A stretch of DNA of 64,000 nt from Tubulanus polymorphus (lineage: Eukaryota; Nemertea; Palaeonemertea; Tubulaniformes; Tubulanidae): positions 558,001-622,000 of the forward strand of contig NC_134025.1 of the NCBI RefSeq assembly GCF_964204645.1, given 5' to 3'. The position numbers were made by a program, and so were the translations under genes. Shown one piece after another: positions 18,573 through 52,100 of the stretch. A model generated the notes under the pieces. It saw only the letters and a program-made list of their open reading frames with translations, was not told the DNA's origin and searched no databases. Every line of letters starts with the position of its first letter. Positions within the stretch are counted from its first letter, which is position 1.

Positions 18573-18748
18573 CCGTACGGTGCTGCCTCTATGCTCATCG
18601 TTAGCGGGATTTTTATACACTAACGTTAGTCAACTCTGGCAAGCTAAGGTCACGGAGTATAACTGGACAGCACGTTGATTGCCAGGGTTGACTTTAGTTA
18701 GTGTATGAAAATCCCGCTAACGATGAGCATAGCGGCAGCACCGTACGG
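18573..18748 (-). repeat. 176-bp palindromic module, copy 4
   Basis: In the right arm, inverted relative to copies 1-3. Bounded by CCGTACGG at both ends. Confidence 0.85.
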
Positions 18749-19209
18749 TCAGGACACCCCTGTACATCCTTTATTCAGCATCAGGACAACTTGGACCACT
18801 CATGGGTTTGTACCCGGGACACCCCTGTACATCCTCTATTCAGCATCAGGACCACTCTGAATCAGTATCAGTAATTGCTGGGTTCTACCCAGGGCATCCC
18901 TGTACATCCTCGATTCAGTATTCAGGACCACTCTGAATCAGTATCAGTAATTACTGGGTTCTAACCCGGGACATCCCCGTACATCGTCTATTCAGCATCA
19001 GGACCTCTCTGAATCAGTGTCAGTAATTACTGGATTCTACCCATGACATCCCTGTACATCCTCAATTCAGCATCAGGACCTCTCTGAATCAGTATCAGTA
19101 ATTACTGGGTTCTAACACGGGACATCCCCGTACATCCTCTATTCAGCATCAGTACGGCCGCTCTGAATCAGTTATCAGTAATTACTTTTGTTAAGATATC
19201 AACATTTTA

Positions 19210-21890: not shown

Positions 21891-22166
21891 TCATACTTTA
21901 TCTCGGATATCTGATATATCATAGTGAAATCTCAATAATTCACAAACACTCATCAATTTACGAATATGACTCAAATCTTTGATTCCGCATTGTTTGAAAT
22001 CGGTGTCTTGAAGGATTCTGAATTCGTCGACCGTTAAACATCCGACAGTCTCTAAATTACTACCATACATCGGTAGTCCAATATGCGTTAATAGATCCTT
22101 AATACCGCTGAACTTTCCTTCCATTATAGACTTATTTGCATAGAGTGTCAAACTTTCATTCGGAAC
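21891..22166 (-). CDS. SASH1: Exon 15: C-terminal SAM domain and stop
   Basis: 91 codons and stop. [13 protein letters not shown] then [20 protein letters not shown] and [15 protein letters not shown]; human has [20 protein letters not shown] and RHIRKLLSAARLF. The C-terminus is [11 protein letters not shown]. Confidence 0.93.
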   Translation of the reverse strand, partial: VPNESLTLYANKSIMEGKFSGIKDLLTHIGLPMYGSNLETVGCLTVDEFRILQDTDFKQCGIKDLSHIRKLMSVCELLRFHYDISDIRDKV

Positions 22167-25100
22167 CTAAAATTAGAAACACAGAAATTCAGAACGACCG
22201 TTAATGATAACAGTTCTAATAGTTATAGTATTATACAGCGCCCCCTATCCACTGCGGTACAATGTTCAAAGGCGCTCCACTAAATCACTATCATTATTAT
22301 AACTCTAACCATGAATCAGTCTTCTCTAACTGAGGAGATGTAACATCTTATCAGCTGCTAGGGAGTTATGTCTAAGATCAGGTACCCATTTACTCCTGGA
22401 TGGAGAGAGGTATTGAGGATGAGGACACTAGGTTAATATTTGGGGTTTGAACCCATGACCCATACAGCTTCACAGTTCTACGTGTAATCATTCTATAGTG
22501 AATTCTGGACTGTGTTCTACAGTTAGAATTAGTTTACTTCTGGTGATTTGACATCTAGACTCAAATTCTAATCAAGAACCGTAGAACCCAGTCACATATG
22601 GTCAGATCATCATTAGTTACTAATGACTTCTTTCCTCATTTGCGATAAAATCAACATTAAGAATCTAAATATACCGGGGTTATCAGCTTTGTGAAACAGT
22701 CCTAGTAAAATCTTACTCCAAAACTGTAAAACTGACAGTCGAGTCTCTGAACTAGAAAACACAAGTGTTCAGGTACAACATTTTCACCATCACTTTTTTC
22801 ACTTAACAAAACATTACAAAATAAATCATCGGAATCGCTACAATCACCAACACAAATAACACAGTTTAACAAGCATTGTGTGTGTAAAAATACCTACATT
22901 AGTGCAACATTACTGTTTTATATAAAATATCTATATTTACTATAAATCTAGTGAGTTAGATTTATAGTTAAGAAGCGCAACCCTTCCCCAGTCACAGGCT
23001 ATGGACGGGATGATTCTACAAATAGTTATATTTACTTACTTTAAAAGTATATCAAATCATTTGACCACTGGAAAATTAGGTATACAAAAAAAATAAAAAT
23101 CGCATTTATCACACGTCATACAAAAAAAAAAGAAAATAGAAAAATGGTTTTCATGAATAAATCTAAAACTAATCTCTATGATTACCGGTACTGGATTTCA
23201 TTTTTAAACTTACAGCAATTTTTCCAGCTGCTCGCAGTTGATTTACGCGGATAGTTTCAATACTGTTTAAAACATCCTCTAAACAATATTGTAATTCTTC
23301 AGAATATCTTTCAACAAGTGGAGGAGGGATACCACATACTCCATGCTGGAAATACAACAACAGTTTTATCGTGATAAACTACAGAAAGAAACTCTGTTAC
23401 TGTCAGGATTCAAACTATCAATTGTTGGGGGGGGGGGTGGAGAGCTCAGAGAGGAACTATAGAAAGGAACTCTGTCACTGTCAGGATTCAAACTATCAAT
23501 TGTCGGGGGTGGAGAGCTCAGAGAAGAATCTCTGTTACTGTCAGAATTCGGGATTATTGAGGGAACAGTTTATAACAGTAACTCACCTCGTTAGTGTATG
23601 GTTTCATAGTGAGATCAATTCCTTCCAGTTGTAGTTTCGATGCAATAAGACTATTCAATGAACTCGTCACATTCCTCTGTTGAATATTCGGACTTCCTTT
23701 CGTTGAATTATTAGTTTTTTTCGGAGTGAGAAGCGTAGGTAAACTGCCCTGTCGTGTGTGTTCACTATGTAACAGTTTAGGGGAACACGTTTGATTATTT
23801 CTCTGTCTGTTTATGATTAAATCTTTACCGGTGCGATGAAACGGTGATCCGGATCTCGTTTCTAAAGTTAAATAATCTTTAGCGTTTCGATGTTGAGTTT
23901 GAGGTGAATAATATTGTCTGTGACTAGAACTACGAGGAACCTCGAACGATTGCGATTTAACCGGTCGGTTGTCGAGGGTAACGCTATTACAGCGTCCCGA
24001 GTGACCGCCGACGATCGATGAAACTCGTGACGGTTTCGGGAGGATTTTAGGCGGAACTCGAGACGTCGAACTCGACCGGATTTTGACGCCGTTTAAAAAC
24101 GAAGTGGCATCGAAATTATCAGCAGCAAAAAACGACGGAGATCGCGACGTATCGCGTACAACGACGCCACCTGGTAGCAGATTATTAGTATCACACAGAG
24201 ACGTCGGCGTAGGGCTGATGATCGGAGTGAAATTATGTAATTCGGCTTCGACTACGAGTTTATGATCCATCGTTAATAAATCGACGCAGTTTCCTTCTCC
24301 TCCCCCCTCGTCCAAACAACCATTCGTCGGATTAAACACATGATCCACTAATTCCACATTTTTATGGACATTGTCGTCGTCCTCATTGTTATACGAAGGT
24401 GAAGGTGACGGAGAATTTGACGACGTCTGCTCAGAATTCAACAAGTCTCTGTTACCTAGCAACGGCAAATAACATACATTCATACCGATATTTCAGGTTT
24501 CTGGGGCTGCAGTTGCTGAAAGCTTGATTACAGATAAACTGATAGATAAATACAATAGTTACAATGAAGTTTTAATTGTCACTACGTTAACTATCCACTT
24601 TGAGTAACTGCAGCCCCTGATTCTCGAGAGACTAATATTGATGCTGGTTATTTTCTACTAGTTTTTAGATAGTTTGAAACTAATATTTACCATCACTATC
24701 TCTGAGTAGTTGTGCAGCAGTTAATAGTTTAGTAGTTTGTTCAGGAGTTATATCCACTAGTGCTAAAGTTTCTGCTGTCAATTCACTGAACGTATCCATA
24801 TCTTCATAACCATGAGAAACTAAAACTTCTTTTAAATCCTGAAAAACGAACGAACAGTTACACAACCTCATTATTCTGTTCTCTGTCGAGTTAATCGTTT
24901 AACCCTTTCAGTGCGTCTACACCGCAGTGCAGTGTATGAATCAGTGATGGATTTTGCTAGTACACCGCACTGCAGTGTATTGATGTAATTAGTAATTAGT
25001 TTTATCTCTATTGAATGATGGCAACACCTGTCAAACATAGTGAAATACTAGTAACTAACAATACACCGCACCACTGTGCAGACGCACTATAGTGGTATTC

Positions 25101-28100
25101 CCTTTTCAACACACTAGGGTGAAATTTTTTAAAAATTTCAAATTATCTCCAGCACTATAGGGTATTAATTAGTCAGCACTGAAAGGGTTAAAACTGAATA
25201 ATGATTGAATACATACAGCAAGACCAATTTTACGAAGCACCTCTTCAAGTGTGAGAGATTGACTGAGACGGAACTTTGATAATGTACTCATTAAACTCTG
25301 TGATATTGGACGTTGTTTAATTGTCTGATCGTTTTCATTATTCAAATCTTCCGTTATTTCAGTGACACAAACGAATTTAAAATCACCATGACGACCGTTA
25401 ACGTCGTAACCTCGCCACATGCCAGACGGATCTTTGTTTGTTATTTTTACGATGTCACCTTTCTAAAAATATAGAAAAACATTTTCAGTTTTCATCACAT
25501 AACTGATAGAAAATACTACACTTCGGAAACGTTTCCTAAAAGATGTCTATCAAAATATAGTTGAAACATTGAATGAACTGTTTAAGCTCAAGAAAACATT
25601 TCGGACTTGATATATATCATCTTCAGTCCAATAGAGTACAAAATGTTTCCTCTAGCTAATAATAATAACACTAGTATTCCTGAACGCGACTTTATCAGGA
25701 TAAAGTCAAAACATCGAATAAACTACGAGCTCGAGGAGACATTTCAAACATTTTACTGTATTTACCTTTAAAGTTAAAGCTTTAGTGTTGTATGGACTAG
25801 GAATATAATCAGCTTTAACTATGGCCGTTCCAATCACTGATTTCACTGAATATTCACCATCTGTAAACAAAACATATACAGTACATAAAACATTGATTAA
25901 TTCGTGTTCACTTAGTCTCAGTTCCAAAGTTCCGCTGAAAACATACCCTCCGCTTTAAGAGTTGAAAATTGCTGATCAGTTGGACTATATTCATCCTGAC
26001 TAGAATGTCCACCTTGTAAACTTTCCTCTCCGCTGCTAGTGTGACCGGTACTAGTCCAACGACCGCCGGTATTAGAAGTATTTGTAGTAGTAAGAAATGA
26101 TTGTAAAGGTGGTGTTGAGGCGTATGATTCGTTATCGGTTGTATATGGTGTGTACAACGTCTCGTCGATATTACCGGTGAAATTTAACAGTGATAAAACA
26201 CTAGACGTATCTCCTATATCTGTATCTGAATAAATATACCAAATACATATAGAATTAGTTGTCGAATAAACACTATAATCCGTGTAAACTGTAGATAAAT
26301 GAAGAAATCCCACACTTCGAATTTGAAATTAAGTTTTTCTGGTCATTCCACCTGATGATGGCTGTTAGTCAACAGCCGAAACGTTGTGGTTTCGTAATAA
26401 TAAATTTGATCATATAATTTCAAATTCGAAGTGTGGGATTTCTTCATTTATTTACATATAGAATATAAACTATACATATATATATATATATATCACACGT
26501 GTTTGTGAAGTTGTGTTTAATTGAATGTAGATCTGAGGAGTCAAATATAACTCAAATATTGTAAACTATGAGTTAGTAAATTATTTCACATAGGTAATAG
26601 TAAGCTCAGGTCCAGGGACTAGCGACGGGTCCCTAGGTCCGGGGACTAACTACGCATCCCTAGGTCCGGGGACTAATGAAGGGTCCCTAGGTCCGGGGAC
26701 TAACTACGGATCCCTAAGTCTGGGGACTAACTAGGATCCATATGTCCGGGGACTAGAGCTCGAGGGCAACACATACCTGTAGACGAACATGTCGATGCTT
26801 TACTGAATTTACGTTGAGCTTTTGGGGCGTCCGGTTGAAACTAAAATACAAACATTACGTGTGAAATGCGGACTCATCAATATTTATACGAGTAACTGAT
26901 TAATGAGACAGACGCTGCTGCCATCTACAGACCACTAATAGAAACATTATTCACCTCTGCTGAACTTATACTTGCTTTCTTGCTGCGACGAGCTTCAAAA
27001 TTTTTAACCTGTAACAAATAAATATCATTGATAATAACATTAATTCAGTTGAGTTAAATAAACATCACCCATAGATTGAGATCCCTTGACCTCAGACCCG
27101 CGCCCCAGGTCCACAGTTGATTCTACACCCGAGCCCAGGTCCAGTTGATTCTAAACCCGGGCTCAGGGCCCAGTTTCATGAAAAAGTTTTAACTAAAATT
27201 TTTGGTTTGATTGCTATTGGTTGCTTCATGTTTTTAATGAGGACGACAATTCAAACTTCACCGTTGATTAAGATTCAATTTACTATAGGGGGAGGGAGAG
27301 CGGGAGTGGGAGGGAGAGAGGGAGTGAGAGAGAGAGAGGGAGGAAGAGGGGAGAGGGGGAGGGAGAGGGAGAAAGGAGAGAGGGAGAGGGGGAGGGAGAG
27401 GGAGAGAGAGGAGGGGAGAGAGAAGGGGAGTGAGAGGGAGAGGGGGAGAGGGGAGAGGGAGGGGAGGAAGAGAGAGTGCTGATGATAAGTGATTGTTTGA
27501 GAACTCACGAGTGGCCATTATTGTAACAGATATAATTCTATTTATTTCAAATGACGTCATTTTCCCTGAAGGCAAATTCTACACCACATTTTAATAATAA
27601 CGGTTTAATTGAGCAGAGACCGCAGCTCAAATCAACCTCAACAATCAAATCTAGTGTCATGACTACCAGAGATTAGAGAATCGTGTCCTTCAGTTTAACA
27701 GTTGAAGTACGTGAATATCTGAGTGGATTAGCAGCATGTGTGACCGCGGTATATATACCGCAGTCCAAAGGTAACAATAGAACTTGAAAAGGCTGGATAT
27801 AGTATCTTTCGAAGCGACTAGATAGAACATGTATTGCCCAATACCGGTTGTAGCCGATAGACACAGTAGAATGAGACATCTGTCTGTAAAACAGGTTTCA
27901 TTGAATCATGAGAACAAATAACTGATCGAAGTAAATACAGAGATGACCATCAGATATTCAGTTCAGTATTGTGTCCTGTTTACAACAGATGTTTTTAAAT
28001 ACATTATTCATGCACACTTTCAAAACTGACCGAAGCAAATAAAACGTGAAACGCACTATAGTTCAACCGTTATAAAACGGATTAAAATGGATTAAAATTC

Positions 28101-31100
28101 TCACCTCCGTTAATGCTTGATCTTGAGACAGTTTTCCTTCTTTTACGGCTAACATTAATTCAGTCAATCCCTCTTTACTCATTGTTATATCGTGCGCCAC
28201 TAAATCTATAAATATATCATAACCATATCAATAGATGATTCACTTATTCAATATTCACAGAAATTCATCGTTGAAATTTTGAAATTCGATGTTTACAATG
28301 AAATATAGTGGTTAGAAAACTTGAGTTATGAAGAAAATTCTACGATGAACCGAAAGTTGTAGTTTCAATAAAACTTGATAAAATTCAGGACCCAGCACCA
28401 AGCAAACCATCCTATCTCTCAAATATAAAATCAAACTTATGAGGGAAGATGATCTCAATCCCCACAGAACAACAAGATGATTTGAATCCCTGCAGAGGGA
28501 GGATGGTTCGAATCCCTGCTGAGGGAGGATGGTTTGAATCCCTGCTGAGGGAGGATGATCTCAATCCCTGCTGTAGGAGAATGGTTTAGAATCTTGTAGA
28601 ATAATTCTAATGAAGTGATATGAATAAATTACCATCGGGCGGTTTATAAACTGACGGTCGTTGTTTTTTCTTTCTGCCGAGAGTTTTAAAGAATTGCGAA
28701 ACTGCGTTCGGTTTCCTCTTTCCGTCGCTGTCTTCTAAAAAATATCATTCAAACATTTATCATTAAATTAACATCCTGTTCAACAGTAAAACCCGCGACA
28801 ATGCACATCATTTAATACATATATAGACAGATATAAAAACATTTTTACATAGATATAAAAACATTTCAATAGTTTATTTCAAATATTGATCAACACAAAT
28901 AATATTTCTATTTATTTTATTCTATCTCCGCAAATAGATTATCAATTATTATCAATTATCTATTTTTGTATATTCTATTTCCAAAACATAATTAACTTTT
29001 ATAGAAAATGTACAAACATCCTGAATCTATAAGACTTTATTTCAGTTGAGAGGGGGTAGTTTCAAACTCAGTGAGTTGGAGGGGGTGAGAAGGGGGTATT
29101 ACAATGACTGTTCTCCAGTCAGTAAGTAGTGCCATAACTGAGTGAAAGCCAGCGAAAGTTCAACATAACTCAACATTTACAAGTCAAGGTTCAGAGACTT
29201 AATGCTCTATTTGTAAATAACAATCCATATTGAAACTACTGACACTAAACATTCAACAGTTTGTTTATTACGACTAGTCTTAAAAATGCTGTAATCTGAT
29301 TTTTGATAAATGTATTTCCTCTTTTCAACTGGAAGGTTTTCTACAGGCCTCAATTTTTACTGTGAATCACATGTAAAAATTCCGATCCACTATAAATCTT
29401 GTAGGAAATGACAAGACACGGTCAGTTCTAATCCTATTTCTACAAATAAAATACAAGTTCTATCAGTAAACCAGACCTGAAGCAATCCCCCCTCCCCCAA
29501 ACACCCCCCTCCCCTCCCCCAAACTACCCCCCTACCAGAATGCTGATTACAGGAAATCTACTTTCTATGAAGTGTTATCTGAGCGTGAAGTGAAATTAAC
29601 ATCACAAAATAACAATTTATTCAAACAGGAATAAAAACAGTGCAGGAGCCTTGAGGAGGATTCTGTTCTCATCAATATTCCTTCCTGTGCCTGAATCCAC
29701 TGCTTCACGTGGAGACCACTGTATCCACAGTACTCCACGTGGAGACCACTGTATCCACACTACTCCACGTGGAGACCACTGTATCCACGCTACTCCACGT
29801 AGAGACCACTGTATCCACACTACTCCACGTGGAAGCTGCACCACTCCACGTGGAATGTGAGTAGTTATTGTAATTGATACCGGATGTATTGAATGATGAT
29901 GTCATATCCGACACAGAGGAAGTTGTTAATGGATTACGAACGTTTTTAATGAGTGAATTTGTATCTGTCACAGTTTGATTTATGAGTGACTATTGTTTCA
30001 GAGAATGATTAATCAGTTGTGGTCATGAGTTGAGTATCAGTGGACACACATACCGCTCAAACCAGGCCTCGATAAAGTAAAGGTTTCTGATGAAATCGAT
30101 ACATTAGTAACTTGAAACTTACACTGGCAAGTGTAGTTATACATCATTAATGAACTAATGCGAATGTGTATCATTTAAAATGGAATCTATGATCGGATAT
30201 TAGAGTTACACCCATCATTAATAATAACTCAGACAGACAAGAGAGAGGTTGGGAGAGAGGAAGAGAGTGAGGTTGAGTGAGAGGAGAGAGAGAGATGAGG
30301 GTGGACAGAGGGAGAGGTGGGAGAGAGGGAGAGAGGGAGATGAGGGTGGACAGAGGGAGAGGTGGGAGAGAGGGAGAGAGGGAGATGAGGGTGGACAGAG
30401 GGAGAGGTGGGAGAGAGGAGAGAGAGATGAGGGTGGACAGAGGGAGAGGTGGGAGAGAGGAGAGAGAGATGAGGGTGGACAGAGGGAGAGGTGGGAGAGA
30501 GGGAGAGAGGGAGATGAGGGTGGACAGAGGGAGAGGTGGGAGAGAGGAGAGATGAGGGTGGACAGAGGGAGAGGTGGGAGAGAGGGAGAGAGGGAGATGA
30601 GGGTGGACAGAGGGAGAGGTGGGAGAGAGGAGAGAGAGAGATGAGGGTGGACAGAGGGAGAGGTGGGAGAGAGGGAGAGAGGGAGATGAGGGTGGACAGA
30701 GGGAGAGGTGGGAGAGAGGGAGAGAGGGAGATGAGGGTGGACAGAGGGAGAGGTGGGAGAGAGGAGAGATGAGGGTGGACAGAGGGAGAGGTGGGAGAGA
30801 GGGAGAGAGGGAGATGAGGGTGGACAGAGGGAGAGGTGGGAGAGAGGAGAGAGAGAGATGAGGGTGGACAGAGGGAGAGGTGGGAGAGAGGAGAGAGAGA
30901 GATGAGGGTGGACAGAGGGAGAGGTGGGAGAGAGGGAGAGAGGGAGATGAGGGTGGACAGAGGGAGAGGTGGGAGAGAGGGAGAGAGGGAGATGAGGGTG
31001 GACAGAGGGAGAGGTGGGAGAGAGGGAGAGAGGGAGATGAGGGTGGACAGAGGGAGAGGTGGGAGAGAGGGAGAGAGGGAGATGAGGGTGGACAGAGGGA

Positions 31101-34100
31101 GAGGTGGGAGAGAGGGAGAGAGGGAGATGAGGGTGGACAGAGGGAGAGGTGGGAGAGAGGAGAGAGGGAGATGAGGGTGGACAGAGGGAGAGGTGGGAGA
31201 GAGAGAGAGAGGGAGATGAGGGTGGACAGAGGGAGAGGTGGGAGAGAGAGAGAGAGATGAGGGTGGACAGAGGGAGAGGTGGGAGAGAGAGAGAGAGGGA
31301 GATGAGGGTGGACAGAGGGAGAGGTGGGAGAGAGAGAGAGAGGGAGATGAGGGTGGACAGAGGGAGAGGTGGGAGAGAGAGAGAGAGGGAGATGAGGGTG
31401 GACAGAGGGAGAGGTGGGAGAGAGGAGAGAGAGATGAGGGTGGACAGAGGGAGAGGTGGGAGAGAGAGAGAGAGAGATGAGGGTGGACAGAGGGAGAGGT
31501 GGGAGAGAGAGAGGGGAGATGAGGGTGGACAGAGGGAGAGGTGGGAGAGAGAGAGAGGAGATGAGGGTGGACAGAGGGAGAGGTGGGAGAGAGAGAGAGA
31601 GAGATGAGGGTGGACAGAGGGAGAGGTGGGAGAGAGGAGAGACTCGCACTGATGAGGGTGGACAGAGGGAGAGGTGGGAGAGAGGAGACTGATGAGGGTG
31701 GACAGAGGGAGAGGTGGGAGAGAGGAGAGAGAGATGAGGGTGGACAGAGGGAGAGGTGGGAGAGAGGAGAGAGAGATGAGGGTGGACAGAGGGAGAGGTG
31801 GGAGAGAGGGAGAGAGGGAGATGAGGGTGGACAGAGGGGAGAGGTGGGAGAGAGGAGAGATGAGGGTGGACAGAGGGAGAGGTGGGAGAGAGGGAGAGAG
31901 GGAGATGAGGGTGGACAGAGGGAGAGGTGGGAGAGAGGAGAGAGAGAGATGAGGGTGGACAGAGGGAGAGGTGGGAGAGAGGGAGAGAGGGAGATGAGGG
32001 TGGACAGAGGGAGAGGTGGGAGAGAGGGAGAGAGGGAGATGAGGGTGGACAGAGGGAGAGGTGGGAGAGAGGGAGAGAGGGAGATGAGGGTGGACAGAGG
32101 GAGAGGTGGGAGAGAGGGAGAGAGGGAGATGAGGGTGGACAGAGGGAGAGGTGGGAGAGAGGAGAGAGAGAGATGAGGGTGGACAGAGGGAGAGGTGGGA
32201 GAGAGGGAGAGAGGGAGATGAGGGTGGACAGAGGGAGAGGTGGGAGAGAGGGAGAGAGGGAGATGAGGGTGGACAGAGGGAGAGGTGGGAGAGAGAGAGA
32301 GAGGGAGATGAGGGTGGACAGAGGGAGAGGTGGGAGAGAGAGAGGGAGATGAGGGTGGACAGAGGGAGAGGTGGGAGAGAGAGAGAGAGGGAGATGAGGG
32401 TGGACAGAGGGAGAGGTGGGAGAGAGGAGAGAGAGATGAGGGTGGACAGAGGGAGAGGTGGGAGAGAGAGAGAGAGGGAGATGAGGGTGGACAGAGGGAG
32501 AGGTGGGAGAGAGAGAGAGAGGGAGATGAGGGTGGACAGAGGGAGAGGTGGGAGAGAGAGAGAGAGGGAGATGAGGGTGGACAGAGGGAGAGGTGGGAGA
32601 GAGGAGAGAGAGATGAGGGTGGACAGAGGGAGAGGTGGGAGAGAGAGAGGGAGATGAGGGTGGACAGAGGGAGAGGTGGGAGAGAGAGAGGAGATGAGGT
32701 GGACAGAGGGAGAGGTGGGAGAGAGGAGAGAGAGATGAGGGTGGACAGAGGGAGAGGTGGGAGAGAGAGAGAGAGGGAGATGAGGGTGGACAGAGGGAGA
32801 GGTGGGAGAGAGGAGAGAGAGATGAGGGTGGACAGAGGGAGAGGTGGGAGAGAGAGAGAGAGGGAGATGAGGGTGGGCAGAGGAGAGGTGGGAGAGAGGA
32901 GAGAGAGATGAGGGTGGACAGAGGGAGAGGTGGGAGAGAGAGAGAGAGGGAGATGAGGGTGGACAGAGGGAGAGGTGGGAGAGAGGGAGAGAGGGAGATG
33001 AGGGTGGACAGGGAGAGGTGGGACAGAGGGGAGAGGGAGATGAGGGTGGACAGAGGGAGACAGTAAATGTTGATTGAGGTAAAACTGGAAGATTAACTTG
33101 AGAAATATCTGTTTTAATATCTCTCCCTCCCTCAGTCCTTCCTATCGGTGTATTCACAGTGTATTCACAGTGTATTCACGGTGTATTCACAGTGTATTTA
33201 CAGTGTATTTACAGTGTATTTACAGTGTATTTAGTTGATTAAGTATCAATGAATGTCGACATCAATAAATGATTTCTAGTAAATAAATGGGTTGGCGATG
33301 ATTGGAGCTGACCTCACCTCATCCCGACTGTAATCAACAGCCATAGAGAGAACGCCTGTCAGAGAGTTAGAGGAACCCTCAGCACTGTCAAGAAGAACCA
33401 CAGCGGTAAAGAGGCAAAGAACCCAGTAATGAGGTGGGAATAGTAAAGGTGAAGATAGAATCCCCTCCCCCCATAGTTACAGCCGTTAAACACTGTTGAA
33501 ATATGTGGATAATGAAATTACAGAAGAGTTAGGATAAGAGAAGGAAGTATTTGTAGATATAACCAGTGAAATTTCCATATTTGATCAATGGTATATTAGT
33601 TTATATGCAGGACACAGACAGCGCCGTTGCACCAGTAGTCGCACCAGTAGTCGCACCAATCAGTACAGGTCGCACCAGCAGCGTACTGTCATAGATCATC
33701 ACTGAATCATTACAAATACAATGTGACAAGCAACGAGTTGATAGTCCACCTCTAAAAATAATGATTCAGTCTCCTGAATAACATTCCTTTATCTACAGCA
33801 GCTACTACTTACTACGTCGTCGTTACATTTCATCTTTAGACATAAATCTATTTCGACAATTTGTAATTAAAACCAATAAAAAACTACAGAGATGTTTGAA
33901 GAAAGTGGTGTAGGGAGAAATATTCCCGTAAAAACCAGCACTTGCCTTCTACGACTGCTAGAATCTAATTAAACTATCGATCAAATCAAATCAAACTACA
34001 TCACGACATGTGGCATTTATTTTGTAGAAATGTCTATTTTCATCAGTGAAGCAGTGAAGCTTATCGGTTCACGTCATGAAATCTATCAACAGTTACAGTA

Positions 34101-37046
34101 GTAATGTTTGATTTATTCTATTCTATACTGACCACTTGAAACAAACTAGACCTATATGTGTCTGGTAATACAGTAACTGGTAATACAGAGTCTGTAACTG
34201 GTAATACAGAGCCTGTAACTGGTAATACAGTAACTGGTAATACAGAGCCTGTTACTGGTAATACAGAGTCTATAACTGGTAATACGGAGGTGGAAACTGG
34301 TAATACAGAGTCTGTAACTGGTAATACGGAGGTGGAAATTGGTAATACAGAGCCTGCTCTGTGTGGAGGTATCGAGTCATGTATGACATTATAAAACCCC
34401 TGACAAATTTAACATTATAAAAAGCCTGAGGTGATATTCATTAAACAGTCATTTACACGACAATTCTGACATAGCAGTTTATTATGTGAGCAATGAAGTA
34501 ATGTCCCGGGCGATTCAATGAATCTACCGATGTTTCAGTGAATCACTCTCAAGAGATTCTCTTTTTCATATCTCTTTCTCCACGAGATGCCTATAAAATG
34601 TCTCTTAATCTTCAATAATGAGATAAAACTACGAGTAGACAATTCTCTGATATTTCATTCTCGATAAAGTTCTATTTCTTATCATCACAGATTCAGCTTG
34701 AATGAACACTTAACAATAGTTGAAATATCAACTAATCTAGATCAATGATTCTTGAAAACTTTCCATATTTTAGCATTATTCACTGTTTTGTAACCTCTGT
34801 ACACCTCTCCCCCTCCACACACCTCTCCCCTCTGTACACCTCTCCCCCTCTGTACACCTCTCCCCCTCTGTACACACCTCCCCCTCTGTATACCTCTTCC
34901 CTTCTGTACACCTCTCCCCCTCTGTACACCTCTCCCCCTCTGTACACCTCTCCCCCTCTGTACACCTCTCCCCCTCTGTACACCTCTCCCCCTCCGTACA
35001 CCTCTCCCCCTCCACACACCTCTCCCCCTCCACACACCTCTCCCCTCTGTACACCCCCCCTCCACACACCTCTCCCCCTCCACACACCTCTCCCCCTCCA
35101 CACACCTCTCCCCCTCCACACACCTCTCCCCCTCTGTACACCTCTCCCCCTCTGTACACCTCTCCCCCTCTGTACACCTCTCCCCCTCCGTACACCTCTC
35201 CCCCTCCACACACCTCTCCCCCTCCACACACCTCTCCCCCTCCACACACCTCTCCCCTCTGTACACCCCCCCCCCCCTCCACACACCTCTCCCCCTCTGT
35301 ACACCTCTCCCCCTCCACACACCTCTCCCCCTCCACACACCTCTCCCCCTCCACACACCTCTCCCCCTCCACACACCTCTCCCCCTCCACACACCTCTCC
35401 CCCTCCACACACCTCTCCCCCTCCACATACCTCTCCCCCTCCACACACCTCTCCCCCTCCACACACCTCTCCCCCTCTGTACACCTCTCCCCCTCTGTAC
35501 ACCTCTCCCCCTCTGTACACCTCTCCCCCTCCACACACCTCTCCCCCTCCACACACCTCTCCCCCTCCACACACCTCTCCCCCTCCACACACCTCTCCCC
35601 CTCTGTACACCTCTCCCCCTCTGTACACCTCTCCCCCTCCACACACCTCTCCCCCTCCACACACCTCTCCCCCTCCACACACCTCTCCCCCTCTGTACAC
35701 CTCTCCCCCTCCACACACCTCTCCCCCTCTGTACACACCTCCCCCTCTGTATACCTCTTCCCTTCTGTACACCTCTCCCCCTCTGTACACCTCTCCCCCT
35801 CTGTACACCTCTCCCCCTCTGTACACCTCTCCCCCTCTGTACACCTCTCCCCCTCCACACACCTCTCCCCCTCTGTACACCTCTCCCCCTCTGTACACCT
35901 CCCCCCTCTGTACACCTCTCCCCCTGTACACACCTCTCCCCCTCTGTACACCTCCCCCCTCTGTACACCTCTCCCCCTCCACACACCTCTCCCCCCCTCC
36001 ACACACCTCTCCCCCTCCACAAACCTCTCCCCCTCCACACACCTCTCCCCCTCCACACACCTCTCCCCCTCCACACACCTCTCCCCCTCCACACACCTCT
36101 CCCCCTCCACACACCTCTCCCCCTCTGTACACCTCTCCCCCTCTGTACACCTCTCCCCCTCCACACACCTCTCCCCCTCTGTACACCTCTCCCCCTCTGT
36201 ACACCTCCCCCCTCTGTACACCTCTCCCCCTGTACACACCTCTCCCCCTCTGTACACCTCCCCCCTCTGTACACCTCTCCCCCTCCACACACCTCTCCCC
36301 CTCTGTACACCTCTCCCCCTCTGTACACCCCTCCCCCTCTGTACACCTCTCCCCCTCTGTACACCTCCCCCTGTACACACCTCTCCCCCTCTGTACACCT
36401 CTCCCCCTCTGTACACCTCTCCCCCTCTGTACACCTCTCCCCCTCTGTACACCTCCCCCCCTCCACACACCTCTCTATTGGTATTGAAGTAATTAGAAAT
36501 GAACATAGATGTATAAAAGTAAAGTATCAGTAATATCTGCATTGATAATTGATATGATATCTCGATATACTGTAAGTCAATGTGAGAGATAGATGAGAAT
36601 GAAGCGACCGCGACACACGACACACGAGACTAGCGTCTGATGTGCTTTAAAAAAAACTACAGTTTTCAAGTCACGTAAAATAGTGGCTTCGATAATAAGA
36701 CACTGAGAGGGAGCAATGATAGCGATGATACAGAACAGTGGTGATGATGAGAGTGATGATGATAGCGGTGGTGATGATGATACTCGGAAATAGTGAAATA
36801 AAGAGGAACTGAATTCAGCTGATTAATATGCTGTACGATGAAATGAGGGTTCTGTGTATGTGACAATAAACAGGGAATCATCATACAACTAGACTTCAGA
36901 TCTTCAATAAAATACTCAATATTCAATAGTCTGATTGTTCGTCTAAACTACTAAACTACGATACTTCTGTAATTTGGTTCTGATCCGACCCATCCCGATA
37001 TTTCATCAAATATTCACCAACACAAATATCAACCTATCAGATATAC

Positions 37047-37130
<84 letters not shown>

Positions 37131-40100: not shown

Positions 40101-43100
40101 AGAGAGGGAGGGGTGGACAATAGATCCATTCTCGAGACTATTCTACTCTACAAGTGTTTGACATTCATTTCACCAAATGGCAAATCAAATAATGAAAGTG
40201 GTCCGACCCAAAGTAGCACATTAAATAACTGTTCATCACAAGTTGACAGCGTGTTTCACAGACAACAAAAACTGTTCTTCAGAATCCGGGTACGTGTAAA
40301 TACGATCCCAGTATTCGAGATTTCGATCATCAATGATTTGATATAAATCTTACCTGAACCGGATCCGGTATCATCTTGTGAGGTACACGGGGAATGTAAC
40401 AAAGGTCTGAAAAAAATAAAACGTTTTCATCGTCACAAAATTAGCACGTTTCACGTTAAGTTCATGTTTTACGGAACCACGGTGAAACTGGACGTCAGTT
40501 TTCAAACAACATTTTCTATCTCGGGATTGTTTTAATTTTTTCCGATGATTAGTTGCGAGTTGTGTAAAATGACTCATGACAAATTTACACGGATCTAAAA
40601 CAGTTTTGTAGCTGTTCGCAGTTTTTCTTTTCTTGTTCGCGGTAATTTTTGAAATAAACAGCAGCTGAAACGTGGTTTAGTCAGAGAAGGGAGTTCTCCA
40701 TATAAAAATATCATAATACGCACATCTGACATTGTCAATTCATTGCTCCTTTTTAGAACATGTTAAAAATTAATAAACATATTTCGTTACCAGTGAATAC
40801 TGAAGGGATGTGTAATACATGTTATAAATGGGATGTTTAAAACATCGATGAAATATCCTGAGTCCGCGTTATAGATATAATGAAAGTCTCTAATGATACT
40901 TACTTGTGAGGTCCTGGAGATCCGTCAGATATTAAAACTATCGACTTATTATATACCTATAATAGAAATAAAAAATATACATTCAATATTCAGATTCTTT
41001 GAAAGTAGGATCCGGAATATTTAACCACATATTCCGATAGTCGAGAGGATGTTGGTCCCCTTCAGGTCTAGAAATTACCCCGGGAAAGTATTACATTTTT
41101 AATAGTGTGATAGGTTTAGTTGTAAAGTTGTGAGAGTCCCAGGAGACGTAATTAATGAAAAACATGAAATACGATGACAATAGATGAGCAGCTATTCGCA
41201 CAGAGGGCGGCAGAGAAAGAAAGACCATCTGTTATACAAATAGAATTCACACCTAATTGTTAAATTCTAACACTTTACATGAATTATGAATAGCATATAG
41301 AACAGTATGGAAACTGACTGGGAGAACTTTGGTTTTCAAGTTAGTCTCCAAGTGGTCGGAACTAATAATCAATCAAACACGCCATAGTTCGGTCGTAACG
41401 TATTTCACAGTGTCGGCCATATTGGAAGTAGGTCCGAACTACAGCGACTGTGCTCAATCCCGTGGTCGACTATTTTCGCACTATAGTTCGAACTGATATT
41501 CGGTTTCACTAACTTGCAATCGTTGACTAACTCTGACTACCGAGATTCACTGATTGACTGACTGACTGACTGACTGACATGTGTCTACAGTCTACAGTCT
41601 ACAGTTTACAGTCTACAGACTCAAGTCTAGATGAACATTCTTTAATATTTCAATAATTCACCAAATGATAAAAACAGCAGCGAAAAATAAAAACGATCTA
41701 GTCATATGGAAATGAGGATTGAGTCAACCAAACTCTCGTAAGAAGACACCAAACTGACGAGGATAATAACGCTGAATTCTGATGGATATTTCTAAATGAA
41801 ATTGCTTCCTAAGTGTAACCGAAAACCATATGAATCATAGGAATTATTCTTTAAGATGAAACACACAGAAATTCCCAGTGGGAATATCTGATAACAGGAG
41901 AGAGACCAGCAGTAGTCAACAGGCTACTACACTCAACACATCACTACACCGCAGACCGCCGCAGCCCACAGCCCACTGTCACCATCCACTGCAGCCCACA
42001 GTGGAGACACTGCCACCAGTTAATTTCAGCCCCCCTTCCTCTCACTTCAGTAACACTTGATTCTGTGTATACTGCTGAGCTGGCTCAGTAGAACCCCCTC
42101 CTTGTACACTGCTGGAGGCCGCGTTGACTAGTGTCAGCTGTGGTGATGATCCAGGTCACAGAAATAATCATAGCTCTGAGCGTAGAGAGAGATGAATCAA
42201 AGATATAACATTCAACTCTACAGGCTGATACACAATTCAGTGAGGAGCACCGGGATTCAGTGAGGGGTGCCAGGATTCAGTGAGGAGCACCGGGATTCAG
42301 TGAGGGGTGCCAGGATTCAGTGAGGGGGTGCCAGGATTCAGTGAGGGGGTGCCAGGATTCAGTGAGGGGTGCCAGGATTCAGTGAGGGGGCTCCAGGATT
42401 CAGTGAGGGGTGCCAGGATTCAGTGAGGGGTGCCAGGATTCAGTGAGGGGGTGCCAGGATTCAGTGAGGGGGTGCCAGGATTCAGTGAGGGGGTGCCAGG
42501 ATTCAGTGAGGGGTGCCAGGATTCAGTGAGGGGTGCCAGGATTCAGTGATGGATTGGAAAGTGCTGGAGTAGGAGTAGAAGATGGAGTAATAATCTCTGA
42601 TTTTGATTTGAGAAAATTTCTATCATTTTCTTACTTTTTTGCAGAAAAATAGTAGTTTTCGATTGTGCTAGTGATTACTACAAACCCGTATCTCAGTTTG
42701 AATAAATCAATTTGAACGTAAGCAAAACTGTTTTTGCATATTTTAAAATCGTATAAATCAAGGATCAATAGAGGTTGATTAGAAAGTCAAGTGTTCGTCG
42801 AGATCCAGGCTGAAGCAATCTATCAACACAGGAAACAACGACAACGAACGACGCAGTTTATTTCAATTCTAATCACACACTGTGTTTTTCAGATAAAAGC
42901 TCGCAACATTTGTTACCAGAATGAAAAAGACATCAACACCTGAATGAAGATAAAGCTCAGAATGCTAATGCAGTCTAATTTGTCATGCACAACTCTGTTC
43001 TATCTTTACATGCAAATATTCAGCTTGCACAGATAAGACTAAACTGTCTACATCTGAGACAGGCAACTGTCTACATCTGAGACAGGCAACTGTCTACATC

Positions 43101-46061
43101 TGAGACAGGCAACTGTCTACATCTGGGACAGGCAACTGTCTACATCTGAGACAGGCAACTGTCTACATCTGAGACAGGCAACTGTCTACATCTGAGACAG
43201 GCAACTGTCTACATCTGGGACAGGCAACTGTCTACATCTGAGACAGGCAACTGTCTACATCTGAGACAGGCAACTGTCTACATCTGAGACAGGCAACTGT
43301 CTACATCTGAGACAGGCAACTGTCTACATCTGAGACAGGCAACTGTCTACATCTGAGACAGGCAACTGTCTACATCTGAGACAGGCAACTGTCTACATCT
43401 GAGACAGGCAACTGTCTACATCTGAGACAGGCAACTGTCTACATCTGAGACAGGCAACTGTCTACATCTGAGACAGGCAACTGTCTACATCTGAGACAGG
43501 CAACTGTCTACATCTGAGACAGGCAACTGTCTACATCTGAGACAGGCAACTGTCTACATCTGAGACAGGCAACTGTCTACATCTGAGACAGGCAACTGTC
43601 TACATCTGAGACAGGCAACTGTCTACATCTGAGACAGGCAACTGTCTACATCTGAGACAGGCAACTGTCTACATCTGAGACAGGCAACTGTCTACATCTG
43701 AGACAGGCAACTGTCTACATCTGAGACAGGCAACTGTCTACATCTGAGACAGGCAACTGTCTACATCTGAGACAGGCAACTGTCTACATCTGAGACAGGC
43801 AACTGTCTACATCTGAGACAGGCAACTGTCTACATCTGAGACAGGCAACTGTCTACATCTGAGACAGGCAACTGTCTACATCTGAGACAGGCAACTGTCT
43901 ACATCTGAGACAGACAACCAACTCACAATGAAACTCAACATCTACAACCTCCATGACTGTTCTGGATCCAGTTTCACAGGTCTCAACTATGACGACATTT
44001 GAAATGAACTAACTTTGACTACCCTGAGAACTGTGGAACTGAGTCTCGAGGACTGTGGAACTGAGTCTCGAGGACTGTGGAACTGAGTCTCGAGGACTGT
44101 GGAACTGAGTCTCGAGGACTGTGGAACTGAGTCTCGAGGACTGTGGAACTGAGTCTCGAGGACTGTGGAACTGAGTCTCGAGGACTGTGGGACTGAGTCT
44201 CGAGGACTGTGGAACTGAGTCTCGAGGACTGTGGAACTGAGTCTCGAGGACTGTGGAACTGAGTCTCGAGGACTGTGGGACTGAGTCTCGAGGACTGTGG
44301 AACTGAATCTCGAGGACTGTGGAACTGAGTCTCGAGGACTGTGGAACTGAGTCTTGAGGACTGTGGGACTGAGTCTCGAGGACTGTGGAACTGAATCTCG
44401 AGGACTGTGGAACTGAGTCTCGGGGACTGTGGAACTGAGTGGTGATGGGTTTGAACTGTGTAGTGTGATGGGTTTGAACTGTGTAGTGTGAGCCAGTGGG
44501 ATGTAAGGTAAGCTGAGAGTGTTTTAAAGTGGTTGATTTAAATCCCTGCAGAAACAACGTAATCTTCAACCGAGTCACGTTCTGTATTTCAAATTACATT
44601 AAACAAATTATGTTTATTTGCACAACAAGTTTCAAACTAAAGTTTCATTTGACAAAACGAATTAAACATGATTTTCACGTATTGATTTTAATTAAGAAGA
44701 AAATGAAATCATCAGAACAGGTGAATTATTTACTGTCAGATCGGCAGCAGGAGCGGCAGCAGGAGCGGCAGCAGCAGCAGCGGGCGACTGTCTACGTCTG
44801 GTGAAGTTGCTTGGATACTAGAAGCCCGGAAATAATGACAGGTAATCACGGAATTGCATGATATAAAATAACAACATGCCACGAGATAAACATTCATCAA
44901 CAACAGATGAATATATAGCTAAATATATCATATCATATCATATCATATCATATCATATCATATGAGGACAGACCTAGGGTTACCATAGCTACAAACCCTA
45001 ACATATGATTGGTCCAGAGCTTGTCACGTGATGTAAACAAACAGGCCATGTCTAGGGTTAGCATGGTTTCTAACCCTAGGTTGTGATTGGTCTAGAGGAC
45101 CCGACCATGACCATGGTCAGTGTAGAGGTATGAGGTGAATGAACTAATGGAGTAATTAGAAATTCAATTGAATATTTGCCATCAGATACTATACAAGAAG
45201 ATAAATGAAGAAATCCCACACTTCGAATTTAAAATTGTAAGATAGAATTTATTATTTTGAAACCACAACGTTTCGGCTGTTGACTGACAGCCATCATCAG
45301 GTGGTATGATGATGGCTGTTGACTGACAGCCATCATCAGGTGGAATGATGATGGCTGTTGACCAGCAGCCATCATCAGGTGGAATGATGATGGCTGTTGA
45401 CCAGCAGCCATCATCAGGAGGGAATTCTTCATTTATCTACAGTATACACGGATTATTTGACGACTAACTATACAAGTAGTTATAACGATGTTTAATTTTT
45501 ATCGTTTCAGTAAACTATAAGCTGGTGAACAAATCCCTCAACTCTCTTCTCTCCCTCCACCGCTCTCAGTCAGAAACAGATCAATCTTTGAGAGCTGTTT
45601 TTCTGGTTCAGTTTTTTTTTCTTGTTCTCAATCAGTGAAACAAAATAAACCACTCAAACTACACCGAACTATAGTACGCCTACAGTTTTACACGAGCAGT
45701 TTTTACTTGAAAAAAAGCAATCGTTTTCCTCGAGAAGATGTGAAGGCTTTATTCAACAACTGATTTCAAATAAATAGATAATAAATAAATAACAACACCT
45801 CATCCCTATTGACCTTGACCACATGATCGTTCTACCCTGATCTCTCCCTCGTCTCTGTTCCTATAATCAAGACTAATAGATCAGTTCTCTCTCATCATTC
45901 GTCCGCGAGGATTTTGGAAACCGATGTGGTATGAGATATAGGTAGACATTAGTAGATGATTAATAGTGAACCTGTGTGAATATATTTACTAAGCAATAAC
46001 TATAAATCATAGCGCAGAAAGTCAACGACAGCCGCGGTGGCTGCGGCTGCGGCGGCCAGCA

Positions 46062-46106
<45 letters not shown>

Positions 46107-49100
46107 GCTAGTATCAGAGTAATAGTCATATCCTGTCTCCAGACGCTATATCACTTCCTCTCCCTCTTTCTCTTTCTCTCTCTCCTTTCACCAGCGAGAA
46201 AAACTCATAAAATAAACACACGTTGAAAGAACTTCTTTATTAGAAAGTCAAATGTAAATGTAAGAAGTATAACAACGCAGGAGATTGGAGTTAGTGTGAC
46301 TCAAACAGTTCAATAATCATTAACGACTCAACGACTCAACGACTGGTTTTTAAAGAGTCTGGTGTCTGAAGATAATTACCACCTAACACTTAATCATATT
46401 ATAGGCCTACACTGCAGTAACGGATAATACCCTCAACCCACGTAATTACTCATTCTATCACTAAACAAATGCATTTCAGACACAAAACTGCATCAATAAC
46501 AGAATCAATTCAGTGTTTTATAGCAATTTTTCCCATATTTACTGATAATCTTTCGAATAAATACTGTGGTTATAATGCAGTGTTAGAAATACAGTTGTTT
46601 TCCATAAGATAACTTGCCTCGACATTTGAGATGCAACAGGTCGGGGTTGTAGCCGGTGTGTAGGCCCCAACCGGTGTGTAGGCCCCAACCGGTCCTACAC
46701 ATTTTTGCCCATTGTGACATAAATGTATTTCGTATTTCTGTGTCTACATCTTTTATTTTTTTAAATCCTCTCCACGTCCCTGCTGTCCCAGGTTTATGCT
46801 AATATTTCTCTTTAGAAAATATCTACAATGTTCATCGTTTAGCGAAAGAAATTATAGCCCCAATTTGTTAAATCCTCTCCACGTCCCTGCTGTCCCAGGT
46901 TTATATCAATATTTCTCTTTTGAAAATATCTATAATATCTATCTTTTAGCAAAATAGATTATAGCCCTAATTTCTAGAAGCCTGAATTAATGAATAAAGT
47001 TATAGTAGTACAATTCTAAAGTTACAGCGTTGATAATGAATGTTAATGAAGGCAAGTCAGTTTTCTAATGTAAGACATATGTTTAATATGTGAACTCTAT
47101 GAGATATCACGTGATGATATTGAGAAGTATTTTATCAATCTCACAGGTACGAGTGGTAAGTTTATCAGTCAACCATCATAAGTGATAAGTCAGGGGTAAG
47201 AAGATTGTCAGCTGCCAATAACTGTAGTGTGGAAATAAATCAATGCAGCAACAGCAGTTACTGCTGACCAGTGAAACCAGTGAACAAAAAAATATATAAG
47301 ACAGCAGTTCACATCACCTCCTCATCTCCACATACACATCACCTCCTCATCTCCACATACACATCACCTCCTCATCTCCACATACATATCACCTCCTCAT
47401 CTCCACATACACATCACCTCCTCATCTCCACATACACATCACCTCCTCACCTCCACATACACATCACCTCCTCATCTCCACATACACATCACCTCCTCAT
47501 CTCCACATACACATCACCTCCTCATCTCCACATACACATCACCTCCTCATCTCCACATACACATCACCTCCTCATCTCCACATACACATCACCTCCTCAT
47601 CTCCACATACACATCACCTCCTCATCTCCACATACACATCACCTCCTCATCTCCACATACACATCACCTCCTCATCTCCACATACACATCACCTCCTCAT
47701 CTCCACATACACATCACCTCCTCATCTCCACATACACATCACCTCCTCATCTCCACATACACATCACCTCCTCATCTCCACATACACATCACCTCCTCAT
47801 CTCCACATACACATCACCTCCTCATCTCCACATACACATCACCTCCTCATCTCCACATACACATCACCTCCTCACCTCCACATACACATCACCTCCTCAT
47901 CTCCACATACACATCACCTCCTCATCTCCACATACACATCACCTCCTCATCTCCACATACACATCACCTCCTCATCTCCACATACACATCACCTCCTCAT
48001 CTCCACATACACATCACCTCCTCACCTCCACATACACATCACCTCCTCATCTCCACATACACATCACCTCCTCATCTCCACATACATACCAGTCTTACAG
48101 ATCACTGATCTATTCTTATGAGTCCGGTTACTGTCTAAACTGCAGTCCAGTTACTGTCTAAACTGCAGTCTAGTTACTGTCTAAACTGCAGTCGTGTTTC
48201 TGACTAAACTGCAGTCCAGTTACTGACTAAACTGCAGTCCAGTTACTGTCTAAACTGCAGTCTAGTTACTGTCTAAACTGCAGTCGTGTTTCTGACTAAA
48301 CTGCAGTCCAGTTACTGACTAAACTGCAGTCCAGTTACTGTCTAAACTGCAGTCTAGTTACTGTCTAAACTGCAGTCTAGTTACTGTTTAAACTGCAGTC
48401 GTGTTTCTGACTAAACTGCAGTCCAGTTACTGTCTAAACTGCAGTCTAGTTACTGTCTAAACTGCAGTCCAGTTACTGACTAAACTGCAGTCCAGTTACT
48501 GTCTAAACTGCAGTCTAGTTACTGTCTAAACTGCAGTCCAGTTACTGACTAAACTGCAGTCCAGTTACTGTCTAAACTGCAGTCTAGTTACTGACTAAAC
48601 TGCAGTCCAGTTACTGACTAAACTGCAGTCCAGTTACTGACTAAACTGCAGTCCAGTTACTGACTAAACTGCAGTCCAGTTACTGACTAAACTGCAGTCC
48701 AGTTACTGACTAAACTGCAGTCTAGTTACTGTCTAAACTGCAGTCCAGTTACTGACTAAACTGCAGTCCAGTTACTGTCTAAACTGCAGTCCAGTTACTG
48801 ACTAAACTGCAGTCCAGTTACTGACTAAACTGCAGTCCAGTTACTGACTAAACTGCAGTCCAGTTACTGTCTAAACTGCAGTCCAGTTACTGTCTAAACT
48901 GCAGTCCAGTTACTGTCTAAACTGCAGTCCGGTTACTGTCTAAACTGCAGTCCAGTTACTGACTAAACTGCAGTCCAGTTACTGTCTAAACTGCAGTCCA
49001 GTTACTGTCTAAACTGCAGTCCGGTTACTGTCTAAACTGCAGTCCGGTTACTGTCTAAACCTGCCTAAACCGCGGTCCAGATTAACTACAAATCTCTTTG

Positions 49101-52100
49101 ATATACCTTCACAATTGAAATGTTTATCATGTCCCACTTTCACATATTTTTCATCGACTGAAGCCTGAACCTGAATCATTACACTAAGATGAGTTTATAG
49201 GGTTCAGTAATTGTTGAGTAGATGTACTCATTCTGCTGTTCAGTAATTGTTGAGTAGATGTACTCATTCTGCTGTTCAGTAATTGTTGAGTAGATGTACT
49301 CATTCTGCTGTTAACACATTACTAAATAATTCCCTATCATTGATACCACATTCAATAATGAAAAGAAAACAGAATTAGAAATTTAAAAAGTCAAACGGAT
49401 GTTATTTCTGTTTTTTTGGCTCGTAGCGCGTGACACTAGTCAGTCAGTCAGTCAGTTAGTCTGTCAGTCAGTCAGTCAGTCAGTTAGTCTGTCAGTCAGT
49501 CAGTCAGTCAGTCAGTTAGTACTGAAATACAGGAATAACCACAAGCGACATTCTCAACAAACACGGTCTTCTTTCAGATATCAGAATTATACTAGTCAAT
49601 AATTCAAACAGAGAGGTCGGAAACCTGACTAACAGTTTTATCATCAATAGAGGCTCACAAAAACAAGTTTCATACTGAGGACAGCACTTGTAGTGAGGGG
49701 CTGTCACACCTCTCTGGTATTAGTGAGGGGCTGTAACACTTCCCCGGTGTCAGTGAGGGGCTGCCACACCTCTCCGGTGTCAGTGAGGGGCTGTCACACT
49801 TCCCCGGTGTCAGTGAGGGGCTGTCACACTTCCCCGGTGTCAGTGAGGGGCTGTCACACCTCTCTGGTATTAGTGAGGGGCTGTCACACTTCCCCGGTGT
49901 CAGTGAGGGGCTGTCACACCTCTCCGGTATTAGTGAGGGGCTGTCACACTTCCCCGGTGTCAGTGAGGGGCTGTTACATCTCTCTGGTATTAGTGAGGGG
50001 CTGTCACACTTCCCCGGTGTCAGTGAGGGGGTGTCACACTTCCCCGGTGTCAGTGAGGGGCTGTCACACACTTCCCCGGTGTCAGTGAGGGGCTGTCACA
50101 CTTCCCTGGTGTCAGTGAGGGGCTGTCACTCCTCTCTGGTATTAGTGAGGGGCTGCCACACTTCCCCGGTGTCAGTGAGGGGCAGTCACACTTCCCCGGT
50201 GTCAGTGAGGGGCTGTCACACTTCCCCGGTATCAATGAGGGGCTGCCACACCTCTCCGGTGTCAGTGAGGGGCTGTCACACTTCCCCGGTGTCAGTGAGG
50301 GGCTGTCACACTTTCCCGGTGTCAGTGAGGGGCTGTCACTCCTCTCTGGTATCAGTGAGGGGCTGTCACACTTCCCCGGTGTCAGTGAGGGGCTGTCACT
50401 CCTCTCTGGTATCAGTGAGGGGCTGTCACACTTCCCCGGTGTCAGTGAGGGGCTGTCACACTTTCCCGGTGTCAGTGAGGGGCTGTCACTCCTCTCTGGT
50501 ATCAGTGAGGGGCTGTCACACTTCCCCGGTATCAGTGAGGGGCTGCCACACTTCCCCGGTGTCAGTGAGGGGCTGTTACATCTCTCCGGTGTCAGTGAGG
50601 GGCTGTCACTCCTCTCTGGTATCAGTGAGGGGCTGTCACACTTTCCCGGTGTCAGTGAGGGGCTGTCACTCCTCTCTGGTATCAGTGAGGGGCTGTCACA
50701 CTTCCCCGGTGTCAGTGAGGGGCTGTCACACTTTCCCGGTGTCAGTGAGGGGCTGTCACTCCTCTCTGGTATCAGTGAGGGGCTGTCACACTTCCCCGGT
50801 ATCAGTGAGGGGCTGCCACACTTCCCCGGTGTCAGTGAGGGGCTGTTACATCTCTCCGGTGTCAGTGAGGGGCTGTCACACTTCCCCGGTATCAGTGAGG
50901 GGCTGCCACACCTCTCCGGTGTCAGTGAGGGGCTGTCACACTTCCCCGGTATCAGTGAGGGGCTGTCACACTTCCCCGGTGTCAGTGAGGGGCTGTCACT
51001 CCTCTCTGGTATCAGTGAACTGGATTGTGAATACAAAGCAGGAAATTACAGGAAATAGACAAACACAATTACTGACAATACAATATCAGATAGGAATACT
51101 AATAGAGTGAGGAGGGGAGGAGAGGGAGAAGGGGAGGAGGGGAGGAGAGGGAGAAGGGGAGGAGGGGAGGAGAGTGGGGGGTAGTTTCATACCTCAATTG
51201 AATCTCGAGTTGTCCATTTGTGAATCCTCATATCTTCCAGTATATCGAGGACATGGTGGAAATGCGTGCGGAATTCTTCAGCGTAACGTTGAGCTACGAT
51301 ATCAACATTACCTCTTGAACCATCCTGTAAAATATAACAAATTTCTCACTATCAGTGACAGTCTCAGTGACAGGCCGAGTGACTGTCTGGGTCTGGCCGG
51401 CTGGATGACAGGCTGGATGGCAGGCTGGATAACAGGCTGAATAAAGCAGGTTGTAAAACAAGTTTTCTTGTTTTACCATTCGAGCGAATTCATCAAAATA
51501 ATCAGAACTCTAAAATCTGAAAATCATGTAAACATTGAATAATATATCGGAGACATGTTGTAAGTGTTTGAATATTAGACGAGGAGTGTCTCGAGATGGA
51601 GTGTTAACCTCGTGAGGTGTTCAGACTACTGCTTCATACACACGGTCACTAGAGATTTCTACGCATAGACTTTGGTAAAAACGGCTAAACTGTTGTCATT
51701 GGCAGCAATAGGGTAATCAGATTTTACAAATTACCATCGCAAATCTAATCACGAGACTCCTTCGAGCAGAAAGAACTTGTAAGAATATTCTACAGATCCC
51801 AAACGTACAGTGAATATGTACAGACAACAACTGAAAAATTCTATTCCCATCTGAGACTGTGATACCGGTTCCCAGATCCAGCCAGCCATCATTCTGACAT
51901 CGAAATGTGTCTAAAGTTTAAAAAGATAAGTCGTAAAAATGATGCGCGACAACAATCCATTTAGAAATATTTCCCTCGAGGCGTTCGTTTCTAGCCGCAA
52001 TCTTTTAAACAGATTATAAAACCTTGAATTTATATCAGATATTTATGATTGAGATACGAGTTCATTCTTGTGTTCGAGCAATAGACGTGAAATGTAGATA

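Follow-up and report, generated by a model that had tools for sequence, protein, structure and literature searches.

What does it mean that a gene of the nemertean Tubulanus polymorphus carries, next to its first and its last coding exon, two exons of identical length and phase, each preceded by the same short motif? The gene lies on the minus strand of contig NC_134025.1, in a stretch of 64,000 nucleotides (the window, to which unlabelled coordinates refer). The original prediction, made on the letters of the DNA, saw here an internal duplication of a module composed of a SAM domain, a PYTN motif and a helix, with exons 2 and 14 as the duplicated helical part. We found that a domain of ~70-80 residues is present twice, that by sequence it resembles the N-terminal domain of NUB1, and that the gene carrying it appears to combine SAMD5 and SASH1, which are separate genes in human.

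The gene model, with borders predicted by hand from the sequence, consists of 15 coding exons forming one open frame of 1023 residues. All its introns (14/14) have GT/AG ends, and the first is 11.7 kb long. SAM domains are numbered in order of appearance.

62989..63456 (-), exon 1 (coding, 156 codons): SAM1 of SAMD5 type, then helix 1 and the PYTN loop of domain copy 1
63268..63447 (-), SAM1, within exon 1; best solved match the SAMD5 SAM 5zrz_B, E 4e-24
62989..63060 (-), exon 1 part of domain copy 1, residues 133-156
51193..51324 (-), exon 2: 132 bp, phase 0-0; bulk of domain copy 1
40904..40956 (-), exon 3: its opening 13 codons (40956-40918) match up with the beginning of exon 15
40354..40406 (-), exon 4: placed solely on splice signals and reading frame
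28633..28734 (-), exon 5: placed solely on splice signals and reading frame
28105..28205 (-), exon 6: placed solely on splice signals and reading frame
26955..27008 (-), exon 7: placed solely on splice signals and reading frame
26777..26840 (-), exon 8: placed solely on splice signals and reading frame
25947..26225 (-), exon 9: placed solely on splice signals and reading frame
25766..25860 (-), exon 10: SH3 domain, N-terminal part
25217..25462 (-), exon 11: remainder of SH3 and start of SAM2
24691..24838 (-), exon 12: remainder of SAM2, which corresponds in position to SASH1 SAM1
23587..24455 (-), exon 13: long linker, then the opening 24 codons of domain copy 2 (23658-23587)
23214..23345 (-), exon 14: 132 bp, phase 0-0; bulk of domain copy 2
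21891..22166 (-), exon 15: closing part of domain copy 2, then SAM3 and the stop codon

A candidate alternative first exon is found at 37501-37480 (-), reading ATGGAAGACGATAGAAATAAAA followed by the donor gtgagt (MEDDRNK), in phase 1. It joins exon 5 in frame and would yield a short product lacking both SAM1 and domain copy 1.

A domain present twice in the gene

The exon borders bear out that exons 2 and 14 are both 132 bp (44 codons) and of phase 0 at both ends. Exon 2 runs from GAT after cag to GAG before gtatga, and exon 14 from CAT after cag to GCT before gtaagt. The donors of the exons preceding them (gtaagt at 62989 for exon 1, gtgagt at 23587 for exon 13) are in phase 0 as well, and the PYTN motifs ending there proved to be homologous as predicted, with 9/18 identical residues. 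Exons 2 and 14 share 11/44 residues, and in both comparisons the register is fixed and gap-free. At this register none of 1,000,000 shuffles reached the BLOSUM62 score of the exon, of the motif or of both jointly; by identity count the same shuffles reached the exon value 16 times, the motif value once and the joint value never. When all window pairs of the protein were scored, 17 of the 405,450 pairs of 62 residues equalled or exceeded the observed value, all 17 on the diagonal of copies 1 and 2. With 44 residues there were 56 such pairs among 438,516, 47 of them on the same diagonal and 9 on that of SAM1 and SAM2.

When the entire protein was run against itself in blastp, only the self match appeared, and therefore residues 1-511 were compared with residues 512-1023. 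The top pair aligned 133-213 with 865-945 over 81 ungapped columns (27 identities, 33%, 47.4 bits, E 6e-10), followed by SAM1 against SAM2 (30.4 bits, E 1e-4). As a control, 1000 shuffled C-terminal halves gave any match in 400 cases, the best at 29.6 bits. The alignment of the two copies continues into the exons that follow (3 and 15), so that both flanking introns fall in identical columns, in phase 0; in our judgement, such a coincidence of two introns is hard to get by chance. Together, the half-against-half match and the two shared introns identify a domain of ~70-80 residues that has been duplicated.

Pfam and NCBIfam searches with the duplicated module gave nothing of use. It is not a SAM domain, as neither a match to Pfam SAM_1 or SAM_2 nor pairwise similarity to SAM domains was found. 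AlphaFold models of exon 2 alone and of exon 14 alone were helix-rich, though these single-sequence models are too short to judge a fold; a Foldseek search with the short exon-14-only model returned no matches. Searches of the T. polymorphus genome revealed no close duplicate of any of exons 1, 2 and 14. The search with copy 2 missed both copy 1 and the NUB1 gene of the same genome, so more distant copies could be missed too. Nor was a further copy of the module seen near other SAM exons in the window and 40 loci of ~3 kb each; the genome has at least 36 SAM places, five of them outside the scanned loci.

Relationship to the NUB1 N-terminal domain

A profile built from two NUB1 proteins, without SASH1 data, found just two matches in the spliced protein, and these were copies 1 and 2. 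Profile matches between the NUB1 N-terminal domain and the duplicated domain run in both directions; exon 2 alone reached only E 0.15 in a NUB1-type profile search. On these comparisons the duplicated domain is of the NUB1 N-terminal type and would be helical. The NUB1 gene of T. polymorphus itself (L047 2080-2540, G000:C1 near 8.107 Mb, minus strand) encodes an N-terminal domain reading MDGAHQALRALLNRDKIKLWLMPYSNTDGSKGEEPK and then DLIENYAKEL..., and like both copies NUB1 shows helix 1, a PY(T/S) loop, a G and helices ending in E.(I/L/M)R. The string DGS.G of this NUB1 also occurs in exon 2 and is absent from exon 14. No intron position is common to the duplicated domain and this NUB1 gene, whose intron is also of phase 0 but lies ~9 codons downstream. 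In NUB1 the N-terminal domain is followed by UBL and UBA domains, unlike the SAM domains found here. We presume that InterPro holds a "SASH1/NUB1 homeodomain-like" domain; the accession we took for it was absent from the Pfam copy searched. In the literature, SASH1 was named together with NUB1 in what is, by its listing, a gene-network study. The NUB1 N-terminal domain is represented by a construct of residues 1-72 in a study which reports that its deletion leaves FAT10 degradation unaffected (PMC12285911).

Relatedness to this domain bears on a question raised for SASH1. A 2023 review describes a helical bundle predicted just before SASH1 SAM2 and asks whether it is real or a computational artefact (PMC10252437). 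The predicted bundle occupies the place before the last SAM, as copy 2 does here, and the alignment with the solved SASH1 SAM2 begins at the sixth residue of exon 15. If residue 1177 is taken as the first of the ISSVSDWL helix and no gaps are allowed, copy 2 (865-945) would correspond to ~1091-1171 of SASH1, the same place as the predicted bundle.

SAMD5 and SASH1, apparently in one gene

SAM1 is 66% identical to the solved SAMD5 SAM (5zrz_B, E 4e-24), has the same residue numbering and conserves Tyr27 and Asp40 of the Eph-binding face. Human SAMD5 is a short separate protein, whereas here the SAM exon is the first of a 1023-residue gene. At the other end, SAM3 has SASH1 SAM2 as its best solved match (2dl0, E 4e-10), and upstream of it stand an SH3 domain and then SAM2, in the order of SASH1, a scaffold of the SLy family with which SH3, SAM2 and the C-terminal SAM3 are shared. 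SASH1 has two SAM domains and the gene here three; what it has in addition, upstream, is a SAM of SAMD5 type and the initial part of a second NUB1-type domain. From this likeness of SAM1 to SAMD5, and of SH3, SAM2 and SAM3 to SASH1, it appears that T. polymorphus has SAMD5 and SASH1 as a single gene.

This comparison covers one species, with presumed sequences for the domain halves of human SAMD5 and SASH1; on that basis we take IRDKL..PPYS to be the C-terminal helix-1 motif of human SAMD5. Neither the presumed human SAMD5 tail nor the presumed end of SASH1 exon 1 had anything credible among its best 12 matches in the window and in intron 1. A search for orthologues in genome contigs and viral contigs, by way of contaminant contigs, gave no relative.

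The genomic SAM next in similarity to SAM1 is 31% identical and is that of an Eph-like receptor, whose tyrosine-kinase end lies upstream of the SAM (L008 1447-1761 and 2808-2996, minus strand, G000:C7 near 5.612 Mb). An Eph SAM query of the genome found, at E 0.01 or better, only this receptor and SAM1 of the window. Aligned by eye, the receptor SAM has a Val before the helix 5 Gly, as EphA5 does; EphA2 has Pro at this place.

A proposed split of the gene through a domain

The exon 1-exon 2 junction has an apparent counterpart in human tumours. In human, 772 kb separate SAMD5 from SASH1, and an RNA that recurs in tumours has SAMD5 exon 1 connected in frame to SASH1 exon 2; in the text available, the report treats it as a tumour gene fusion of two human genes, not as a normal or ancestral transcript (PMC5352057). 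In T. polymorphus the corresponding junction falls inside domain copy 1, which leads us to infer that a single ancestral gene existed and was later divided within this domain. Exons 2 and 14 would be the cores of two NUB1-N-terminal-type helical domains that arose by an old duplication within one gene, and this scaffold gene would hold vertebrate SAMD5 (exon 1) and SASH1 (exon 2 onwards) in one chain. In the vertebrate line the split would have occurred in intron 1, so that helix 1 stayed with SAMD5 and the helices after it with SASH1; the recurrent human RNA of SAMD5 exon 1 and SASH1 exon 2 would be the old transcript, made by read-through splicing and rebuilding the domain.

As to how the protein might work, the SAMD5 SAM binds Eph SAMs, and changing Tyr27 to Phe abolishes EphA5 binding (PMC5993539). 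Similarly, EphA8 SAM is bound by mouse SASH1 SAM1, which Y652A blocks (PMC11820823). SAM2 here carries HGYED, whose tyrosine is probably the counterpart of mouse SASH1 Y652. With Tyr27 conserved in SAM1 and HGYED in SAM2, two Eph-docking SAMs per chain are predicted, both of which would dock on Eph receptor SAM domains via the mid-loop tyrosine, while SH3 and the linker would recruit partners. Each helical domain might pack beside a SAM, copy 2 on SAM3 and copy 1 after SAM1, either stabilising it or binding a partner that NUB1 binds too. Our best guess for the role of the helical domain is such packing on the SAM next to it.

We give this explanation as a whole, that is the duplication, the joined gene, the split in intron 1, the read-through RNA and the proposed working, a probability of roughly 75%. 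A more specific version of the history, in which one ancestral bilaterian gene gave SAMD5 and SASH1 when broken in the vertebrate line in the middle of the NUB1-type domain, the tumour RNA is the ancestral read-through transcript and the separate proteins may rebuild the domain in trans, hangs evenly in the balance. A common ancestral gene for SASH1 and SAMD5 goes unmentioned in the titles and abstract beginnings listed for 24 papers naming both.

Alternative explanations

Helix-rich stretches can resemble each other by chance, and exons 2 and 14 are both helix-rich in the single-sequence models. The shuffles, the window-pair counts, the half-against-half blastp and the NUB1 profile matches all contradict this, and we consider it extremely improbable. 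It is unlikely, too, that the copies were acquired separately, by exon shuffling or by two insertions from a NUB1-type donor, as the PY(T/S)N.DGS.G shared by copy 1 and the T. polymorphus NUB1, and absent from copy 2, might suggest. About as unlikely, or very slightly less so, is the duplication of a larger unit of SAM, linker, motif and helix exon, which is what the original prediction proposed. It would account for the alignment of SAM1 with SAM2, their same order before each copy and their share (9 of 56) of the top-scoring 44-residue window pairs. However, SAM1 is closer to Eph and SHIP2 SAMs than to SAM2, for which reason we rejected co-duplication of the SAM; the spacing from SAM to copy is unequal (~66 against ~265 residues), and an intron lies inside the SAM2 domain and none inside SAM1. 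Of that proposal the motif and helix stand, and the SAM domains were probably not copied with them. That each copy is preceded by a SAM holds loosely, SAM1 ending ~66-70 residues before copy 1 and SAM2 ~265 before copy 2, and a third SAM directly after copy 2 (exon 15) had been overlooked.

The joining of exons 1 and 2 is predicted from the sequence, across an 11.7 kb intron, so two neighbouring genes might exist here as in human, one SAMD5-like (exon 1) and one SASH1-like with its own unseen first exon. The candidate first exon at 37501-37480 would fit such an arrangement, though it joins exon 5 rather than exon 2. Yet exons 1 and 2 hold complementary parts of one NUB1-type domain, and their phase-0 sites match the intron position of copy 2 exactly. 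Moreover, seven intron-1 open frames scanned (of 64 listed in 51400-64000) had no Pfam match, and no tail like the presumed human SAMD5 one was among the best 12 intron 1 matches. We hold this to be improbable, somewhat more so than separate acquisition of the copies. Two neighbouring ancestral genes could instead have fused in this lineage, the joined state being derived, which a comparison of one species would allow. Against this, the NUB1-type domain is whole only when joined (with the human halves presumed), which makes it difficult to see the split state as ancestral, and we regard such a fusion as no likelier than separate acquisition. Duplication within a single ancestral gene, followed by its splitting, is the explanation that we retain.

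Other features of the window and the genome

Introns 1, 2 and 4 are rich in long minisatellites, with units of 14-45 bp and some arrays of more than 60 copies (score 300 or more); one has a 23-bp unit in 38 copies with 99% matches.

30241-33060, minisatellite
34794-36475, minisatellite
42235-42549, minisatellite
43042-43918, minisatellite
44026-44440, minisatellite
47310-48086, minisatellite
48121-49060, minisatellite
49692-51018, minisatellite
54931-55511, minisatellite
57800-58301, minisatellite
60010-60581, minisatellite
61580-62274, minisatellite

In addition, tandem arrays of 466-bp and 76-bp units occupy 9217-10656 and 15015-19186. The 76-bp unit is present on both sides of position ~17-18 kb in opposite orientations, and between its arrays lies a 301-codon open frame (17111-18016, plus strand), a candidate end of a retroelement reverse transcriptase. 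Elsewhere in the genome, ten homeobox matches, all on the plus strand, were found at G000:C6 5.32-5.63 Mb (L048-L056 and L059). Some resemble Lox5, Lox2 and Lox4 in their C-terminal peptides and one appears to be of Post type, which would suggest that the genome is lophotrochozoan.

Implications for SASH1 and SAMD5

Since copy 2 is conserved in an invertebrate, has phase-0 exon borders, has a second copy in the same gene and is related to NUB1, the helical bundle predicted before SASH1 SAM2 would be real, and borders for its expression are now supplied. If the split-gene history is true, the "gene fusion" used as a tumour marker would be an ancient and possibly normal transcript, and RNA-seq calls of it in chordoma, neuroblastoma and meningioma would have to be read differently. 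An interaction between SAMD5 and SASH1 would also be predicted.

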